A DNA stretch of 64,000 bases, taken from a bacterium. Lineage in GTDB: Bacteria; Orphanbacterota; Orphanbacteria; Orphanbacterales; Orphanbacteraceae. Below are positions 26,312 to 51,777 of the stretch, in pieces (position 1 is the stretch's first letter; every line of letters starts with the position of its first letter). The notes under the pieces were generated by a model. That model did no database searches and was not told the origin of the DNA. It was given only the letters and a program-made list of their open reading frames with translations. Location of the stretch: the NCBI GenBank assembly GCA_025782575.1, contig JALGYY010000046.1, positions 186,001 to 250,000 of the forward strand, in the 5' to 3' direction. The position numbers were made by a program, and so were the translations under genes.

Positions 26312-28183
26312 CTATCGAAGGAGCGCGATCTTCCCGGTAACGGTTTCGCCCCCTCCGTGGATTACATAAAGATAAACGCCTGAGGCGACATTTCGGGCGC
26401 CTTTATTCATTCCGTCCCAGCTCATCAGCCAGTCCGCCGGAATCCCGCCGGGGGAGGAGGTGGTAAGCGTACGAACAAGATTCCCTGTGAGATCATAGAT
26501 TTCCATATGAAGGGACTCCGGGCCGGCCGAGTCATCGCCCGGCTGGAAGATGAACGTGATGCGACCACCCTTCTCAGGCCGATACGGATTGGGTGAGACG
26601 ATCGCGCGGCCCTCCCGTGGAACGCGAATATCAAGATCGAGCGTGATGCGTTCGGGCGATACCCGAATGTCCTCAACCCAGAGCTGAGAAAACGAGCTCC
26701 CATAAAACGCCGTGGACGGTGATGTCTCCGGTGTCCACTCGCGCCGATTCGCCCCACCCCAGAAGTCAGAGGGTCTCCCCAGATCGGTGAATCCAATTGC
26801 AGAGTCGCCGTCACCGTTATCGGCTTCGACGACACCGACCACTCTCTCAGCCGGTGTGCCGGCGTTATTGTCTTCTTTGCTTTCATTGATATGCCAGATG
26901 AGAAGTCCTTCACCAGGCAGGTACTCATCGAAATCGAGTTGCTTCCTGTACTCCAGAAAGAAGTATTCACCATTCTGGCTGTTCCGCTCAAGCCAGTCGT
27001 TCCCGCCCGGGTTGGAGAGTAGCCGAATCGCTTCGGCCGATTCTATGATGGGAGGGAGCTCGATTCCCTCGATACGGCTCGAGTCACCGATACCCTGTTC
27101 GAAAGCGGTAGGCTCGAGCCAGCCGAGCCATTCCTTGAAAAATGGATTGAAATGGGACGGCATCGATCCGGTCCGTGTGCCGCCGCCCGTGTTCGAGAGA
27201 GGGAGCAGGCTACCGGCGTCCATCACGCAGAACGAACCGACGAGGGACTGCTGAACCGTCTGGCCGTTTTCGACAAAGGTCCCATAAAGATCAGGCAGTC
27301 CCAGAATGTGGCCGAACTCATGGACGTAGACCCCCAGCTCACCCAATTCGGGAACCAGTATGTATGGGCCGATTCGAACACCGTCTATCGTTGTCGCTCC
27401 CATGAGGTCGAGGATTGCGGGATCGCTGAGATCCGACTTGTGGGACCAGATCTGGCTCGCGCTCAGAGATCCGTTCAGTACTCCCTCGGCGCCGAGACCG
27501 GCGTGAATGATAATGACGGCGTCCACAATTCCGTCGTCATCTCCCGACGAGGGAATCCCGTCGGGACCGTCATTATCGAAACGGGAGAAATCGACGCCCG
27601 CCTGGTCAGCTAGAATAGCCGCTTCCCGTACCATCCCCCAGTTGTTGGTCGGATAGGGAAGGGCCTGGAAGGCCTGGGTGGAAGTGTTGAAACCGAAATC
27701 GTCGATCGTTCCGGGAATCCCGTCACTATTGACATAGTAATCGAATGATTGAGTCGATCGGAGCCACACTGTAACTCCGCCCCCCAATCGGAAGCGATCC
27801 TGCGAAACTTCTCTATAGTAGTCCCGCATGGTTGCTCCGCCGAACGGGGAGTCGGAAAAGAGAAACCGATCGATACTGGCGGGTGTGTTTGTCTCGCGCC
27901 TTGCCTGGAGGTCCTGCCATTCGATTAGAATGACCGGGACCGCCATGGAATCGGGAGCGGTTCCCCTCGGCGTTTCTTTCAATGCGGGGAAAATCGCGAT
28001 GCCGGCGATAACCGAGCGGGCACCTCGCTTGGCGGCGCTCTCTCCCGGCTCCGGAATCTTACGGTAAAGGCATGAAATCGGAAGGGGCCGGCCTTCTTCT
28101 GCACGGAGTTCGGGAACTGTCAGGATACTGACGACCACCCATGCGATCAGGAAAAAGGCTGCAGTGGAAATCGAGCGCTTCAA
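26312..28183 (-). CDS. Secreted M6-family metalloprotease with FlgD/type-A-like C-terminus
   Basis: A 623-residue exported zinc protease: signal peptide ending ELRAEE, then an M6 (immune inhibitor A-type) catalytic domain with HEFGHILGLPD (HExxHxxGxxD) encoded near 27303-27323, a downstream Met region VMDAGSL, and a C-terminal domain of about 90 residues starting SPNPYRPEKG and ending GVYLYVIHGGGETVTGKIAL. That tail looks like FlgD Ig-like or type A sorting domains found on type IX substrates. The protein presumably acts outside the cell. Its promoter is the divergent one at 28289-28317. Confidence 0.88.
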   Translation of the reverse strand: MKRSISTAAFFLIAWVVVSILTVPELRAEEGRPLPISCLYRKIPEPGESAAKRGARSVIAGIAIFPALKETPRGTAPDSMAVPVILIEWQDLQARRETNTPASIDRFLFSDSPFGGATMRDYYREVSQDRFRLGGGVTVWLRSTQSFDYYVNSDGIPGTIDDFGFNTSTQAFQALPYPTNNWGMVREAAILADQAGVDFSRFDNDGPDGIPSSGDDDGIVDAVIIIHAGLGAEGVLNGSLSASQIWSHKSDLSDPAILDLMGATTIDGVRIGPYILVPELGELGVYVHEFGHILGLPDLYGTFVENGQTVQQSLVGSFCVMDAGSLLPLSNTGGGTRTGSMPSHFNPFFKEWLGWLEPTAFEQGIGDSSRIEGIELPPIIESAEAIRLLSNPGGNDWLERNSQNGEYFFLEYRKQLDFDEYLPGEGLLIWHINESKEDNNAGTPAERVVGVVEADNGDGDSAIGFTDLGRPSDFWGGANRREWTPETSPSTAFYGSSFSQLWVEDIRVSPERITLDLDIRVPREGRAIVSPNPYRPEKGGRITFIFQPGDDSAGPESLHMEIYDLTGNLVRTLTTSSPGGIPADWLMSWDGMNKGARNVASGVYLYVIHGGGETVTGKIALLR

Positions 28184-36744: not shown

Positions 36745-37017
36745 ATGAATAAGACCCAGCTGATCAACTACGTCTCCCGTTGCAGCAAGATCAATCGCAA
36801 AGAGTCCACGGCGGTCGTGAATTGGACCCTCGAAGGGATTATGAAGGGGACGAAGAGCCGTGACGGTATGCGTCTGGCCGGTTTTGGGAATTTCAAATGT
36901 GTTACCACCGGCCGGGAGAAGAAGTACAACCGGCGGACTAGGCGGTATAACTGGACCAAGGGTAGCAAGCAGATCCAGTTCAACGCGAACAAGGCATACA
37001 AGACCTACGTTTCGTAG
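36745..37017 (+). CDS. Divergent HU-family DNA-binding protein
   Basis: A 90-residue HU/IHF-fold protein: the N-terminal dimerisation part (MNKTQLINYVSRCSKINRKE) and RLAGFGNFKCV are recognisable, but the DNA-clasping arm is changed. The usual GRNPxTG with the intercalating proline is replaced by the basic/aromatic KKYNRRTRRYNW. It probably still binds DNA but with a different mode. GGGTGGAAAAG lies before the ATG; a terminator follows immediately. Confidence 0.82.
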   Translation: MNKTQLINYVSRCSKINRKESTAVVNWTLEGIMKGTKSRDGMRLAGFGNFKCVTTGREKKYNRRTRRYNWTKGSKQIQFNANKAYKTYVS

Positions 37018-37033
37018 GTAAACCTTAATCGAT

Positions 37034-37066
37034 AAAGGGCGTCCCGAATGGGGCGCCCTTTTTTTA
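37034..37066 (+). terminator. Terminator after the divergent HU gene
   Basis: AAAGGGCG and CGCCCTTT form a stem with an inner TCCC/GGGG pairing and GAAT loop, followed by a run of seven T (37059-37065). Confidence 0.88.
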
Positions 37067-37206: not shown

Positions 37207-37758
37207 ATGATCAAGGCGATTGCTGCTGTTCTCGTAAGCGCGCTTTTCCCCGGATTCGCAGCTGCTCAGCTATCCGTTGAGCTTGATCTCGACGGTGTAG
37301 TTGGCAACGGGCCGGACGTAAACTGTGCAGACGTTAGTGATTACATCAACGTAGATATCTGGATTACTGGTACCCCGCTCTCTCTCTTGTCCGCCAGCGT
37401 GAGCATCTGTAACAATGACGGATCCCTTGAGTTCCAGGGGTACCAGGACGCCATCGGTTCACCATGGACAATCACACCTCCGCAGTTTGGTCCGTGCCTG
37501 GTGATACAGGCAACCGACTTCACCTTCAGCGCTCCGAAGACTGTCCCCTTCCTTTACGGGACAGCTACGTATCATGCGGCGGCCGATGGGACCCTCGGCG
37601 AACTTACAGTCGACGACAATAACTCCGGTTGGTTTTCCGCCAATGGTGGTGGTACTGGTTTCTTTACCAATAATATAGGCGTCCTCTTTCTCATCGGGGG
37701 GTGCGATACCGCCACCGAAGAATCGAGCTGGGGAGCGGTGAAGGGCCTGTTCCGATAA
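37207..37758 (+). CDS. Secreted protein of a tandem family, copy 1
   Basis: A 183-residue exported protein of unrecognised family. A signal peptide ends FAAAQ; the mature start SVELDLDGVVGNGPD is shared by all copies. The body is predicted mostly beta (VSDYINVDIWITG, DGSLEFQGYQDAIG, ATYHAAADGTLGELT), reminiscent of cohesin-like or other small beta-sandwich modules, but this is only a shape argument. The C-terminus ends in ESSWGAVKGLFR, a motif kept in every copy. ACAGGAGGGG precedes the ATG. It leads the array; the promoter region has overlapping TATGAT boxes (37123-37133) but no clear -35. Confidence 0.8.
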   Translation: MIKAIAAVLVSALFPGFAAAQLSVELDLDGVVGNGPDVNCADVSDYINVDIWITGTPLSLLSASVSICNNDGSLEFQGYQDAIGSPWTITPPQFGPCLVIQATDFTFSAPKTVPFLYGTATYHAAADGTLGELTVDDNNSGWFSANGGGTGFFTNNIGVLFLIGGCDTATEESSWGAVKGLFR

Positions 37759-37821
37759 AGATCAGATCATATCGCTCAATGGCAACCAAGCAACTACGGG
37801 CATTGGAGAGGAGGAGATATC

Positions 37822-38373
37822 GTGAGCAAGGCTATTCCTGTTATTCTGGCTAGTGCGCTGTTTGGAGGATTTGCTGCGGCCCAGCCATCCGTTGAGCTCG
37901 ACCTCGATGGTGTGACCGGCAACGGGCCGGACATGTACTGCGTAGAGGTTAGTAACTACATAAGCGTTGATATCTGGATCACCGGTGCCCCGATTTCTCT
38001 CTTTTCCGCCCACGTCAGTATCTGTAACCTCGACGGGGCCCTCGAGTTCCAGGGGTTCCAGGATGCCATCGGTGCACCGTGGACGATCACCCCACCCCAG
38101 ATCAATGGCTCATGCGCGCTCTTTCAGGCAACGGATTTGACATTCTCCGCGCCGAAGGCTCTCCCACTGCTGTACGGGAGAATCACATATCACGCGGCTG
38201 TCGATTTTTCCTTTGGTGATCTCACTGTTGACGCCAACTCCGGTTAGTTTTCTGCGTATGGCGCGACCGGCCAGTTTTCCAACAATATCGATGCTGCCTT
38301 TTACATCTCGGTGACATGCGGTCATGCCACCGAAGAATCAAGCTGGGGTGGCGTGAAGGGCCTGTTCCGGTAG
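37822..38373 (+). pseudogene. Tandem family copy 2, interrupted by one amber codon
   Basis: Homologous to its neighbours over the full length, but the codon at 38245-38247 is TAG where copy 1 has TGG (Trp in NSGWFSA). Reading on gives the rest of the domain and the shared ending ESSWGGVKGLFR with stop at 38371-38373. The start is GTG 37822 behind GAGGAGGAG. As it stands it would give a 141-residue product without the conserved C-terminal motif. The rest of the frame is intact, so the change is recent, or the stop is read through, or it is a sequence error. Confidence 0.8.
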
Positions 38374-38433
38374 AGAGCGGACTGTAACAATAGATGCTTC
38401 CCGGCAGACGTGCACTCAGCGAGAGGATCCATC

Positions 38434-38985
38434 ATGAAAAAGGCGATCACTGTTGCGCTCTTGGGCATGGTCTTCGCGGGGTTCGCTGCTGCACAGAATC
38501 AATCATCAGTTGAACTCGATCTTGATGGTGTAGTCGGCAATGGTCCGGATAACGTTTTCGTGAGTGTCAGTGATTATATAGATGTGGACGTTTGGCTTAC
38601 GGGTGATCCGCACCCCCTAGTGGTTGTCAGTATTGGTATTTGCAATGTCGACGGATCCCTGGAATTCCAGGGATTCCAATATGCGTTCGGTCTGCCATGG
38701 ACCGTGTACCCGCCGGAGATCGATGGCTCTTGCGCTTGGATTTGGGCATTTGATCCCTCATTCATGTCGGGGACGATGACCCCGATCCTGTTCGGAACGG
38801 CTACCTATCATGCGGCGGTCGATGGGTCACTCGACGATCTCACGATCAGCAGTGACTCCGCCTGGCTCGGATTTTATGGTTATACCTACTTTTTTACTGA
38901 CAATGTCGGTGCTTCCATTCAGATCGGTGGGGTGACTTCCGCTGAAGAGTCGAGCTGGGGTGGGGTGAAGAGCCTGTTCAGGTAG
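38434..38985 (+). CDS. Secreted protein of a tandem family, copy 3
   Basis: A 183-residue paralogue. Signal peptide ending FAAAQ, mature SSVELDLDGVVGNGPD, then VSDYIDVDVWLTGDPHPL, DGSLEFQGFQYAFGLPWTVYPPEI and the end ESSWGGVKSLFR. It is closest to copy 5 (shared DPHPL and YAFGLPWT segments), while copies 1 and 4 resemble each other in the DAIGS region. Start ATG 38434 follows GAGAGGA; an upstream GTG at 38410 would spoil the signal peptide. Function unknown. Confidence 0.8.
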   Translation: MKKAITVALLGMVFAGFAAAQNQSSVELDLDGVVGNGPDNVFVSVSDYIDVDVWLTGDPHPLVVVSIGICNVDGSLEFQGFQYAFGLPWTVYPPEIDGSCAWIWAFDPSFMSGTMTPILFGTATYHAAVDGSLDDLTISSDSAWLGFYGYTYFFTDNVGASIQIGGVTSAEESSWGGVKSLFR

Positions 38986-39048
38986 AGATCGACTCCGACA
39001 ATTCGAGTGCGCCCCGGCTTTCATGTGCGTTTCACAGGATGGTCGATC

Positions 39049-39603
39049 ATGGTGAAGACGATTACAGTTGCGCTCTTAGGTTCGCTTTTCGCGGGTTTCG
39101 CCGTAGCCCAATTTGAGCTGTCTGTTGAACTCGATCTCGATGGTGTAGTTGGCAATGGTCCGGACGTGATCGCGGCGAACATGAGTGATTACATCAGTGT
39201 GGACGTCTGGATTATTGGGGACCCTACCTCTGTTTCGTACGTGGGTGTTACTTTTTGCAATCTTGATGGATCCCTCGAATTCCAGGGTTATTCGGACGCG
39301 ATCGGTTCAGGGTGGACGATTACTCCGCCGCAGGTCACGGGATCCTGTGTGCTCGTTCAGGCAACCGATTTCTCGTTTTCAGCGCCGAAGATTGCCCCGT
39401 TCCTGCATGGTACGGCTACCTATCACGCAGCAGTCGATGCATCCATCGACGATCTTACGATCGATGCCAGACAATCCGGTTGGTTTACTGCGTTTGGCCC
39501 CTACCTGTTTTCAGACAATGTAGGGGCTGTGGTAATCGTTTCAGGAGAGCCCGCAGCCACCGAAGAGTCGAGCTGGGGTGGCGTGAAGGGCCTGTTTCGC
39601 TAG
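39049..39603 (+). CDS. Secreted protein of a tandem family, copy 4
   Basis: A 184-residue paralogue with signal peptide ending FAVAQ and the shared SVELDLDGVVGNGPD start, MSDYISVDVWIIGDP, DGSLEFQGYSDAIGSGWTITPP and ESSWGGVKGLFR at the end. The ATG at 39049 is preceded by ACAGGAT. It is complete. Function unknown; export to the periplasm or surface is inferred from the signal peptide. Confidence 0.8.
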   Translation: MVKTITVALLGSLFAGFAVAQFELSVELDLDGVVGNGPDVIAANMSDYISVDVWIIGDPTSVSYVGVTFCNLDGSLEFQGYSDAIGSGWTITPPQVTGSCVLVQATDFSFSAPKIAPFLHGTATYHAAVDASIDDLTIDARQSGWFTAFGPYLFSDNVGAVVIVSGEPAATEESSWGGVKGLFR

Positions 39604-39666
39604 AGAATGGATTCCAAACTTCAGATGCTCCCCGGCTAGCATGTGCAATCGACAGGAGGGTTTGTC

Positions 39667-40221
39667 ATGATGAAGGCGATCGCTGTTGTGCTCCTAGGGA
39701 CGCTCTCCGCGGGGTTCGCCGTAGCCCAGATTCAGACTTCCGTTGAATTCGACCTCGATGGTGTAGTCGGGAACGGGCCGGATATTATTGCTGTCACTGT
39801 GAGCGACTACATTGCCGTTGATGTCTGGATTACGGGTGATCCGCACCCTCTATTATTTGTCGCTATAACGATGTGCAATCTGGACGGATCACTCGAATTC
39901 CAGGGATTTCAGTATGCTTTCGGCTTGCCGTGGACCGCTTACCCACCGGATATCAATGGCCCTTGCGTGCTCCTGCGAACAGTTGACTTCTCGTTCACGA
40001 ACTGGAAAATGACCCCGGTCCTGTTCGGAACGGCTATGTACCATGCGGCGGTCGATGCTTCCCTCGACGACCTAGCGATCGACGCCGATAACTCTGCGTG
40101 GTTTTCTCTCTATGGCATCACCGGCATCTTCACCGACAACGTTGGCGCCTCCGTGCAAATCGGTGGGGTGACATCCACTGAAGAATCGAGCTGGGGTGGC
40201 GTGAAGAGCCTGTTCCGATAG
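39667..40221 (+). CDS. Secreted protein of a tandem family, copy 5
   Basis: A 184-residue paralogue, last of the array: signal peptide ending FAVAQ, SVEFDLDGVVGNGPD, VSDYIAVDVWITGDPHPL, YAFGLPWTAYPPDI and ESSWGGVKSLFR. GACAGGAGGG precedes the ATG. No terminator is seen behind it; the next clear signal is the strong promoter of the Tol genes. Confidence 0.8.
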   Translation: MMKAIAVVLLGTLSAGFAVAQIQTSVEFDLDGVVGNGPDIIAVTVSDYIAVDVWITGDPHPLLFVAITMCNLDGSLEFQGFQYAFGLPWTAYPPDINGPCVLLRTVDFSFTNWKMTPVLFGTAMYHAAVDASLDDLAIDADNSAWFSLYGITGIFTDNVGASVQIGGVTSTEESSWGGVKSLFR

Positions 40222-45742: not shown

Positions 45743-46512
45743 TGAACCGGGTCTGGGCCATCGCCAAACGAGAGCTGGCCGACTACTTTCATTCCCCTGT
45801 CGCTTATGCGGTGGCAGTCGTGTTTCTGATTCTCGGTGGCTATTTCTTCTACAACTTCGTCTCGTTTTATCATCTCCTCTCTCTCCAACCGGCCGCTTCC
45901 CGACCCCCAGGTGAGTATCTCACCATTGCCGAAGGTGTCTTACGCCCCCTCTTTGAGAATCTGGCCTTTCTGTCGATGCTGATTATTCCGTTTCTGACCA
46001 TGCGGCTTATTGCCGAGGAGAAGAGGCGACGCTCCCATGAACTGCTGATGACCTACCCTGTGAGCGACGCCGAGTTGATAGGTGGTAAGTTTCTCGCTTC
46101 CGCGCTATTTTATGTCGCCTTGCTGATTCTCAGCACGGCCTATCCGATATTGCTCGCGGGTATGACCGAGGTTGACCCCGGTCCCCTGCTTGCCGGCTAT
46201 CTCGGTCTCATCCTCACCGGGGCATCGTTCCTTGCTATCGGCCTGCTTGTTTCGTGTACCACCGAAAGCCCGATCGCCGCGGCCGTCGGTACGTTCGGTG
46301 CCCTGCTTCTTGTTTGGACGATCGGATGGAGCACCTCCGTCGCCGGTCCCCGGTGGACTCCACTCTTCGAGTCTCTGTCGTTCCTTCATCGATTCGGAAG
46401 ATTCGCGGAAGGAATCGTCGATCTGGGGGACGTCGTCTTCTTTGTAGCGGCTACATTTGCTCTGACTGTCTGCTCCATCATGATCATATCCGCCCGAAAG
46501 TGGAGGGGATGA
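45742..46512 (+). CDS. ABC transporter permease, GldF-like
   Basis: A 256-residue membrane protein with six predicted helices; the opening NRVWAIAKRELADYFHSPVAY and ERRRSHELLMTYPVSD-like segment (EEKRRRSHELLMTYPVSD) are typical of GldF/ABC-2 type permeases. Start ATG 45742 follows GGGGAGG and overlaps the ATPase stop. Partner of the ATPase upstream and the GldG-like protein downstream. Confidence 0.87.
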   Translation: MNRVWAIAKRELADYFHSPVAYAVAVVFLILGGYFFYNFVSFYHLLSLQPAASRPPGEYLTIAEGVLRPLFENLAFLSMLIIPFLTMRLIAEEKRRRSHELLMTYPVSDAELIGGKFLASALFYVALLILSTAYPILLAGMTEVDPGPLLAGYLGLILTGASFLAIGLLVSCTTESPIAAAVGTFGALLLVWTIGWSTSVAGPRWTPLFESLSFLHRFGRFAEGIVDLGDVVFFVAATFALTVCSIMIISARKWRG

Positions 46513-47846
46513 TGAAGGGGGTCACTTCGATCATTCTCATGCTAGTCATTGTCGTACTCGTTGTGGGTCTCGCCGATCGATCGGCCCCTCGCTTTGACCT
46601 CACCAGGGAAGCTACTAACAGTCTTGCTCCGCAGACTCTCGCCATTCTCGCCGCTCTGGATACCGACGTGGCGGCGACGGCGCTTTATCGGCCGGAGGAC
46701 ATGGCCGCAGAGCCGATTCGGAAATTACTCGATCGGTTTGCCGCCGCTACGCCACGGTTTTCCTACGAGATCGTCGATCCGGATCGCTATCCCGGCCGGG
46801 TTCAGGAGCTTGGCGTCTCGACGTACGGTGCAACAGTGGTCGAAAGAAACGGGCAGCGGGCGGCGATTTTCAACTACGGCGAGAATGATCTCGCTGTCGC
46901 CATTCGGCGTCTTGTGAGGGAGAAGAGTCCGGTCGTTCGCTTCACCACCGGGTTCGGCGAGAAAGGGATCGGGGATGCGGGGCCGGATGGTTATTCCGTG
47001 ATCACAGAAAAGATTCGAGCCGATGGCCTGGTTGTCGAAGAACTACTCATGCCGAGCGTTTCGGCAATTCCTGAATCGACTGATCTCATCGTCGTGGCGG
47101 GCCCCACCCTGCCGTTCACGGACAGAGAAACCGATCTGCTCGAGGCCTATATTCGAGGGGGGGGGCGAGTACTCAGTCTGATCGATCCATTTGCACCTGC
47201 AGTGTTCGAGGTCCTGCCGGGGCGATTCGGCATGGAACTGGGACGAAACGTGGTTGTCGACCGCTCGAGCCGTCTCTACGGCGCTGATATTCAGATGCCA
47301 GTGGTGATTTCCTATGATCTTCATGAAGCGACGCGGGGTATTCGGGGGACGACGCTTTTCCCTCATGCTCGCTCCGTCGGGCTGGCGCCGGGGGGAGGGG
47401 GGGCGGACGAAATCCGATCGCTTCTTACAACAAGCAACGAGGCATGGGGAGAAACGAATCTAGCCCTTCTGAAGACGGGGAAGGCCGTATTCGATGAGGG
47501 CGTCGATCAGCCCGGGCCCCTCTCGCTCGGTATGATCGCCTCGGTAAACTCGGGGCCGGACTTGTCGGCCAGGCGGGGCAGGCTCGCTGTTTTCGGCGAC
47601 TCTGATTTCCCTCGGAACCGGTCCATATCCCACGGCGCCAACGCTGATCTCTTCCTGAATCTGGTGAACTGGATGGCATCCGAAGAGGCGCCTCTCGGCA
47701 TTCGATCGCCAGGAAGAGAGGACGAACTGCTTCTTCTGACCGTGAGCCAGGGGAGACGTCTCTTCTGGATCTCCGTCGTCATGCTTCCCGGTCTCGTCGC
47801 TCTCGCCGGAATCATTCTCGTCGGCCGCTGGCGGTGGGGCGCGTGA
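46512..47846 (+). CDS. GldG-like membrane protein
   Basis: A 444-residue protein: N-terminal helix (SIILMLVIVVLVVGLADRS), a large periplasmic domain with FDLTREATNSLAPQT and VRFTTGFGEKG typical of GldG/ABC-type uncharacterised proteins, and a C-terminal helix. ATG 46512 overlaps the permease stop; the open frame extends far upstream but inside the permease gene. A 9-G tract (47157-47165) encodes Gly-Gly-Gly. Confidence 0.85.
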   Translation: MKGVTSIILMLVIVVLVVGLADRSAPRFDLTREATNSLAPQTLAILAALDTDVAATALYRPEDMAAEPIRKLLDRFAAATPRFSYEIVDPDRYPGRVQELGVSTYGATVVERNGQRAAIFNYGENDLAVAIRRLVREKSPVVRFTTGFGEKGIGDAGPDGYSVITEKIRADGLVVEELLMPSVSAIPESTDLIVVAGPTLPFTDRETDLLEAYIRGGGRVLSLIDPFAPAVFEVLPGRFGMELGRNVVVDRSSRLYGADIQMPVVISYDLHEATRGIRGTTLFPHARSVGLAPGGGGADEIRSLLTTSNEAWGETNLALLKTGKAVFDEGVDQPGPLSLGMIASVNSGPDLSARRGRLAVFGDSDFPRNRSISHGANADLFLNLVNWMASEEAPLGIRSPGREDELLLLTVSQGRRLFWISVVMLPGLVALAGIILVGRWRWGA

Positions 47847-50823: not shown

Positions 50824-51777
50824 TTGCGGCTCTCAAACAGAACACTGATTCCTCTGATTTTATGGACCCTCTCAGCGTCATCCGTGATAGCTGGAGATCA
50901 GCAAGGAACGCGGGCATATCCGTTCCTTCGGATAGGTACTGATGCCCGTGCCATGGGGATCGGCAGCGCGTACACAGCGATTGCCGTAGGGCCGGGGGGG
51001 ATGGATTGGAACGTAGCCGGCATAGCCGGATTGAACCGGCCGGCGGTTACCACCAGTTTTCTCGACTACGGTCTTAGCGGTGTCGGCGCCGGTTCGATCG
51101 CATTCGTACAGCCCATGGGGACGCGAGGTTCCGTCGGCGTGGGTGTTCGCTATTTTCGTGTCGGGGATATTCCGACGACCACCGAGGCGAACCCGACAGG
51201 AGAGGGGCTGGGAAATTTCTCTTCAACCGATATTGCCGCGAGACTGGCGTTCGCCTATCGGCTGACACCCGGGTTGCACGCTGGGATCAGCGGATCGGTG
51301 ATCTCCGGTTCGATCGATGACCGCGGAAGTTTCGGCCTGTCGAGCGACTATGGACTCCTGTGGAACCGCGCACCCGCCGGGCTCCGGCTCGGTGCGGCCC
51401 TCCGAAACGTAGGGACGCAGACTTCAGCTTACTTTGAGATCGTTGACCCGATGCCGACCGAGTTGTCATTCGGCGCCTCCCGCCCGTTCCCGGGGAGCGG
51501 ACTCCTGATCGGCATCGATTATAATTGGTCTGTCGATTGGGAAGGGACAGTTGATCTCGGGGTGGAGTGGACACCGGTTACCGACTTCTTCCTTCGTGCC
51601 GGCTATAACGGGCGGGGAGCGGAGCTCCGAGATTCGAGCGAAGAAGCCGGAATAGCGGGCTACACGTTCGGTCTCGGTTTTCGAAAAGTCAGGGCATTCG
51701 CCATCGATTACGCGTATGCCTCGCTGGCTGACCTCGGCGGCACGAACCGGGTCTCGTTCACGTGGGAATTCCAATGA
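50824..51777 (+). CDS. PorV/PorQ-family outer-membrane protein
   Basis: A 317-residue outer-membrane barrel protein with signal peptide and the family opening YPFLRIGTDARAMGIGSAYT, then PGGMDWNVAGIAGL. The rest shows alternating beta strands (FLDYGLSGVGAGSIAFVQP, VGVGVRYFRVGD) and an aromatic end FTWEFQ. In Bacteroidota PorV is part of the type IX machinery; homologues occur across the FCB group. TTG start behind GAAGGAGA. Confidence 0.85.
   Translation: MRLSNRTLIPLILWTLSASSVIAGDQQGTRAYPFLRIGTDARAMGIGSAYTAIAVGPGGMDWNVAGIAGLNRPAVTTSFLDYGLSGVGAGSIAFVQPMGTRGSVGVGVRYFRVGDIPTTTEANPTGEGLGNFSSTDIAARLAFAYRLTPGLHAGISGSVISGSIDDRGSFGLSSDYGLLWNRAPAGLRLGAALRNVGTQTSAYFEIVDPMPTELSFGASRPFPGSGLLIGIDYNWSVDWEGTVDLGVEWTPVTDFFLRAGYNGRGAELRDSSEEAGIAGYTFGLGFRKVRAFAIDYAYASLADLGGTNRVSFTWEFQ

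Follow-up and report, generated by a model that had tools for sequence, protein, structure and literature searches.

The window analyzed here, a stretch of 64,000 nucleotides, contains at positions 37207-40221 five homologous genes of ~184 codons each, arranged in tandem on the forward strand with a pitch of 612-621 bp and spacers of 60-66 bp. Copy 1 (37207..37758, 183 amino acids) encodes a signal peptide, a cohesin-like domain and a C-terminal WG tag, as judged from its open reading frame, its family match and the family fold. The same architecture is found by reading frame and family match in copy 3 (38434..38985), copy 4 (39049..39603), whose product was also modeled, and copy 5 (39670, or 39667, to 40221). 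Copy 2 (37822..38373), assigned on reading frame and family match, starts with GTG and is interrupted by an in-frame TAG at 38245..38247 (context NSG*FS), where copies 1 and 4 have tryptophan, with its WG tag still in frame downstream. It is therefore a broken gene, or one that is read through, so that the five copies of the original prediction are present with the expected positions and spacing pattern but only four are intact.

All copies do share, as first described, the signal peptide, the N-terminal sequence (S)VE(L/F)DLDGV.GNGPD and the end ESSWG(G/A)VK(G/S)LFR followed directly by the stop codon. The tag of copy 1 occupies the last 16 codons and the stop (37708..37758; motif match C21:223729-223758, and logo), and genome motif matches place the others at 38323..38373 (copy 2), 38935..38985 (copy 3), 39553..39603 (copy 4) and 40171..40221 (copy 5), all on the forward strand. 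Upstream of the array lies an HU-family gene (36745-37017, by family match), separated from it by a terminator-like hairpin on the forward strand (37034..37061, by consensus match), and the other flank is a tolQ/exbB-like gene that begins a tol-pal region. Adjoining this region is a forward-strand open reading frame (46254-47846) with a weak match, far below the cut-off, to the gliding ABC component GldG. An M6-family metalloprotease-domain protein (TIGR03296, 141 bits) is encoded on the reverse strand at 26312-28183.

The family had been described as unrecognized, and this holds at the level of sequence models, as no Pfam or NCBIfam model matches it, including the Pfam cohesin, and no relatives were found in viral contigs; its fold, however, is recognizable by structure prediction. 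An AlphaFold model of the copy 4 protein, built with 30 family members, has a pLDDT of 90 overall and about 97 within the domain, and predicts a cohesin-like β-sandwich, a flexible low-confidence linker and one short terminal helix (residues 176-182) that corresponds to the C-terminal motif. When this predicted model was searched against the PDB, cohesin modules made up nearly all of the top 44 matches, the best being 6kgc (E 3.9e-9, TM 0.76 on the target, about 10% identity). On this modeling the mature domain of the array proteins is a cohesin-like fold. The likeness to the cohesin domains of cellulosomes goes no further than the predicted fold, given the ~10% identity, the lack of a Pfam cohesin match and the scarcity of dockerins, which number only 1-3 matches per genome; a cellulosome was rejected on the last of these grounds. 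Each of the seven genomes sampled from the phylum contains the cohesin-like family, with 5-30 matches per genome. In one relative, G002, the same tagged family forms tandem arrays of five copies (C8:333809-336501) and four copies (C2:1222289-1224636).

The tag itself extends well beyond the array. Its consensus, E-x-x-S/T-WG-x-V/I-K-x-L/M-F-R at the very end of the protein, was searched for at the DNA level with a pattern covering WG..K..[FY]R and the stop codon, the same pattern reversed serving as control. The 4.88 Mb genome holds 38 matches to tag plus stop and none to the reversed pattern, while a frame-shifted version of the pattern had no matches in seven genomes. Once their last 25 residues are trimmed off, the 37 tagged open reading frames that could be read fall into 18 unrelated families that include β-helix proteins, X25/choice-anchor-like proteins, lipoproteins and many orphans. 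By a simple heuristic, a signal peptide is present in 34 of the 37, compared with 266 of 669 neighboring open reading frames; since the heuristic is lenient, the contrast weighs more than the raw numbers. In 1.36 Mb of loci, overlaps included, 193 of the 199 occurrences of the motif are C-terminal and six are internal, and the reversed motif occurs once. The suggestion that the array proteins end in a sorting or anchoring signal would have been refuted by a motif confined to the array; instead the motif closes many unrelated exported proteins, whose presumed location would be the cell surface.

Several positions outside the search pattern are also conserved, namely T-A-T at -16 to -14, E at -13 (31/37) and S/T at -10 (30/37), and the last 16 residues are polar except for W, V/I, L/M and F. 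The codons for Gly, Lys, Phe, Arg and stop are drawn freely from the alternatives, which indicates that selection acts on the protein, and an origin of the tag as a repeat-DNA artefact was rejected because the codons vary freely from copy to copy. No Pfam or NCBIfam model (June 2026) matches the tag, none of the NCBIfam CTERM models matches the tagged proteins, and PDB sequences gave no convincing match to the tag or to the FN3-like carrier described below. The literal peptide strings occur in none of 5.39 million papers, and no description of the tag was found in the largely open-access literature searched. In 18 of the 37 tagged proteins, array members among them, a loose pattern finds signal peptides with A-x-A followed by Q. 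This resembles the "Q-rule" of Bacteroidota, which PMC5837995 reports to be missing throughout the FCB group at large.

The tag is present in each of the seven genomes sampled from the window's phylum, with 21-62 matches per genome and 0-1 in the controls, and other many-tag genomes have 9-77. Among the matches listed in a scan of a genome collection are Eisenbacteria, Krumholzibacteriota, KSB1, Latescibacterota and Calditrichota, as well as Kapabacteria, Ignavibacteria, Thermochlorobacter and Hymenobacter; these groups belong to the FCB superphylum, and a few MAGs with odd labels were listed besides. The number of tags per genome is bimodal: Eisenbacteria-like lineages have many, up to 77, and genomes of Bacteroidota, Ignavibacteria, KSB1 and Kapabacteria have one or two each. 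In KSB1, Kapabacteria, Ignavibacteria and Hymenobacter the tag is mostly found on a single exported FN3-like protein of ~140 residues that ends in R-[TS]-WG-[STM]-IK-[AES]-[ML]-FR, with W, G, I, K, F and R invariant across 13 sequences. Its predicted structure, a β-sandwich followed by a linker and a terminal helix, has the same anatomy as the window protein. The FN3-like gene adjoins genes for an MXAN_6640-type putative metalloprotease and an ABC ATPase at three Ignavibacteria/Kapabacteria loci (L114, L139 and L104). One Kapabacterium (G010:C1:94841-96841) has an identical tag DNA string twice, 2 kb apart, where it is usually single.

The distribution of the tag is nested within that of the type IX secretion system (T9SS). 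A sample of 395 genomes was taken from the phylum Bacteroidota, in which SprA was scored by SprA_N (PF14349) and strict tags were filtered by eye among the matches listed. SprA_N was present in 96 of 96 strict-tagged genomes and the tag in none of 92 SprA-less genomes, a nesting with a Fisher p of 2e-13 that takes no account of shared ancestry. A further 207 genomes bear SprA and no tag, which shows the tag to be dispensable to the T9SS. Each of the seven genomes of the window's phylum also has SprA_N (in this genome at C21:307573-308742). Of 30 tagged genomes examined for it, 28 have a match and two, G016 and G028, gave none, and PF18962 tails occur in 24 of 24 tagged genomes and above the cut-off in none of 14 control genomes. 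On these genomic data the tag apparently occurs only in T9SS-bearing bacteria, although the link may partly reflect shared FCB ancestry. The tagged proteins combine a Sec signal peptide with a C-terminal tag in genomes that possess the SprA translocon, a combination typical of T9SS substrates in general, and we infer that the tag is a signal for passage through this system.

The strongest argument that the tag and the T9SS domain serve similar functions comes from homologous proteins that end in one of two ways. The cohesin-like domain occurs in proteins of ~180 residues that carry the tag, and in proteins of ~800-1120 residues, subtilases and SBBP/DUF7948 proteins, that carry a C-terminal domain of the FlgD_ig/T9SS-type-A-like kind. 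At the loci examined the type-A-like domain is found in 0 of 120 tagged open reading frames and the tag in 0 of 50 domain-bearing ones, while 47 tagged open reading frames have a homologue among 15 that bear the domain. The exchange of tag for domain on homologous cargos is seen in at least three families, the cohesin-like, the β-helix and at least one more, and two of the large β-helix proteins pass the cut-off of TIGR04183, the NCBI model for T9SS type A. The median sizes are 232 amino acids for tagged and 722 for domain-bearing proteins. At four loci (L269, L270, L274 and L275) a large domain-bearing gene and a small tagged gene are adjacent or overlapping, and the order domain-then-tag was observed eight times against an expected 3.6, a difference that is not taken as a preference because the loci were selected.

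Known T9SS signals are domains of type A, B or C (PMC10202324), and types A and B each have their own shuttle (PMC12618676). Like the tag, the type A domain (PF18962, TIGR04183; PorV shuttle) is C-terminal on varied Sec-exported proteins, in the same genomes and on the same cargo families, and has a basic/hydrophobic end. It differs in being an Ig-like domain of ~75-100 residues that ends in a strand, where the tag is a predicted helix of ~14-16 residues on a linker. No match to type A (PF18962/TIGR04183) or type B (PF13585/TIGR04131) models was found in four array and ten other tagged proteins at E-values up to 1-10, and the copy 4 model, with its cohesin-like domain, linker and one short helix, lacks an Ig-like seven-strand C-terminal domain. 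In these genomes the type-A-like domain ends in [RK]-K-M-V-L-[LVI]-R, and KxxxK is a conserved terminal motif of type A ends (PMC11285876, PMC5445135); the resemblance of the K-x-[LM]-F-R end of the tag to KxxxK is suggestive only. Types B (PorP/SprF shuttles) and C (ChiA) are likewise alternative C-terminal signals, and with their alternative shuttles they imply that the T9SS reads more than one signal, but they are ~100-residue regions with other motifs and gave no match here. The T9SS signal of Porphyromonas gingivalis HBP35 has been mapped to its last 22 residues, and removal of two C-terminal residues from RgpB blocks export (PMC11285876, PMC5445135), which together make it plausible that a T9SS-linked signal could be a short C-terminal peptide whose last residue is fixed. 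Outside the T9SS, the PEP-CTERM/exosortase, GlyGly-CTERM/rhombosortase and MYXO-CTERM/myxosortase signals resemble the tag in being short and in having a basic end, and each genome has them on dozens of exported proteins that are unrelated to one another, but they contain a membrane-spanning helix and a signature or cleavage motif, whereas the tag lacks a membrane segment. The general kind of signal, a short C-terminal tag shared by many exported proteins, is known; one that has no membrane segment and is exchanged with T9SS domains is, to our knowledge, new.

The reading that we favor, at even odds, is that the tag is a short sorting or surface-docking signal linked to the T9SS. In the mechanism that we propose, the signal peptide would be cleaved and the folded cargo, here the cohesin-like domain, would present a flexible linker with an amphipathic helix, W-G-x-[VI]-K-x-[LM]-F-R-COOH, at its end. 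The free C-terminus would be bound by an outer membrane protein that works with the T9SS, the most plausible candidate being a PorV/PorQ-family barrel, and this protein would move the cargo across the outer membrane, keep it at the surface, or both. The tag would in this way do for small proteins what the type A domain does for the large multidomain proteins that it terminates in the same genomes. This genome encodes 13 PorV/PorQ-family barrels, one of them inside the window on the forward strand (50824..51777; NF033709, 145.6 bits against a cut-off of 90), about 10.6 kb downstream of the array. Such a barrel is possibly the type of receptor that reads the tag; no receptor family recurs enough beside tagged genes, one PorV-family gene lying at three loci. 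Passage through the T9SS, surface location and the identity of the receptor are alike the conditional parts of this mechanism. The wider claim is a tentative one, falling just short of an even chance: that this is a superphylum-wide peptide signal, namely a helix of ~14 residues whose free carboxyl end is fixed and which the T9SS, or a PorV-like barrel serving it, reads instead of a folded domain, and that it is kept on a single conserved carrier in many Bacteroidota and Ignavibacteria and has spread to dozens of cargos in lineages of the Eisenbacteria-like and Krumholzibacteria-like kinds.

In whole phyla, the surface proteome is defined by C-terminal sorting signals. If the tag is such a signal, it identifies hundreds of proteins of uncultured lineages as surface proteins, extends the known T9SS signals, which have the size of domains, by a short peptide, and provides a minimal means of displaying proteins on T9SS bacteria. 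It also raises the testable question of how little C-terminus the T9SS needs, and can be converted at once to a profile model and counted in any genome.

Several observations count against a T9SS-linked signal, among them the many SprA-bearing genomes that have no tag, the two tagged genomes with no SprA_N match and the possible effect of shared FCB ancestry. Moreover, the known T9SS signals are folded domains. The signal of RemZ buries ~1,850 Å2 in the translocon, binding via a large folded surface (PMC10994853), and a 12-residue helix cannot reproduce this; and about ten tagged proteins look like lipoproteins, which would already have an anchor without surface docking. In the main alternative, which is less likely but substantial, the tag is a docking helix that acts within the periplasm or on the inner side of the outer membrane, independently of the T9SS, and ties exported proteins to a conserved envelope partner such as a chaperone, an assembly machine or a peptidoglycan- or membrane-bound scaffold. 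A short helix with a fixed free carboxyl end would suit such a role, as would the lipoprotein-like cargos, and the FN3-like carrier of Bacteroidota, one per genome, need not be secreted at all. A general envelope partner would not predict the absence of the tag from all 92 SprA-less genomes, and the exchange of the tag with a type-A-like domain on homologous cargos also counts against this alternative.

It is improbable that the tag is instead a processing or quality-control signal, whereby a protease reads the F-R end and either cuts off the tail or breaks the protein down. Fixed terminal residues carried on a flexible linker do suit recognition of a free C-terminus, and an MXAN_6640-type metalloprotease gene is next to the FN3-like gene at the three loci given above, but no protease family is consistently adjacent to tagged genes, and degradation is hard to reconcile with a tag that 18 families have retained and that conserved single-copy proteins also carry. 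Shared ancestry alone, with one duplicated family whose ends are alike without sorting function, is very improbable: the array and a 14-member family of this genome are each paralogous, yet the 18 families are unrelated, their folds differ (cohesin, β-helix, FN3, X25-like) and identity over the last codons exceeds that of most of the gene.

A variable surface antigen or matrix protein system diversified by recombination, as originally suggested for the array, is equally improbable, since the tandem paralogues with their mosaic blocks, and the further arrays of the family in G002, are set against dN/dS values of 0.15-0.26, dS of about 1-2 and a lack of near-identical tracts among the copies. 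With pairwise amino acid identities of 55-72%, these values describe old duplications under purifying selection. The blocks shared in alternation by copies 1/4 and 3/5, taken at first as a trace of recombination, fit a history of two older pairs, 1/2 and 3/5, which are the closest, plus copy 4.
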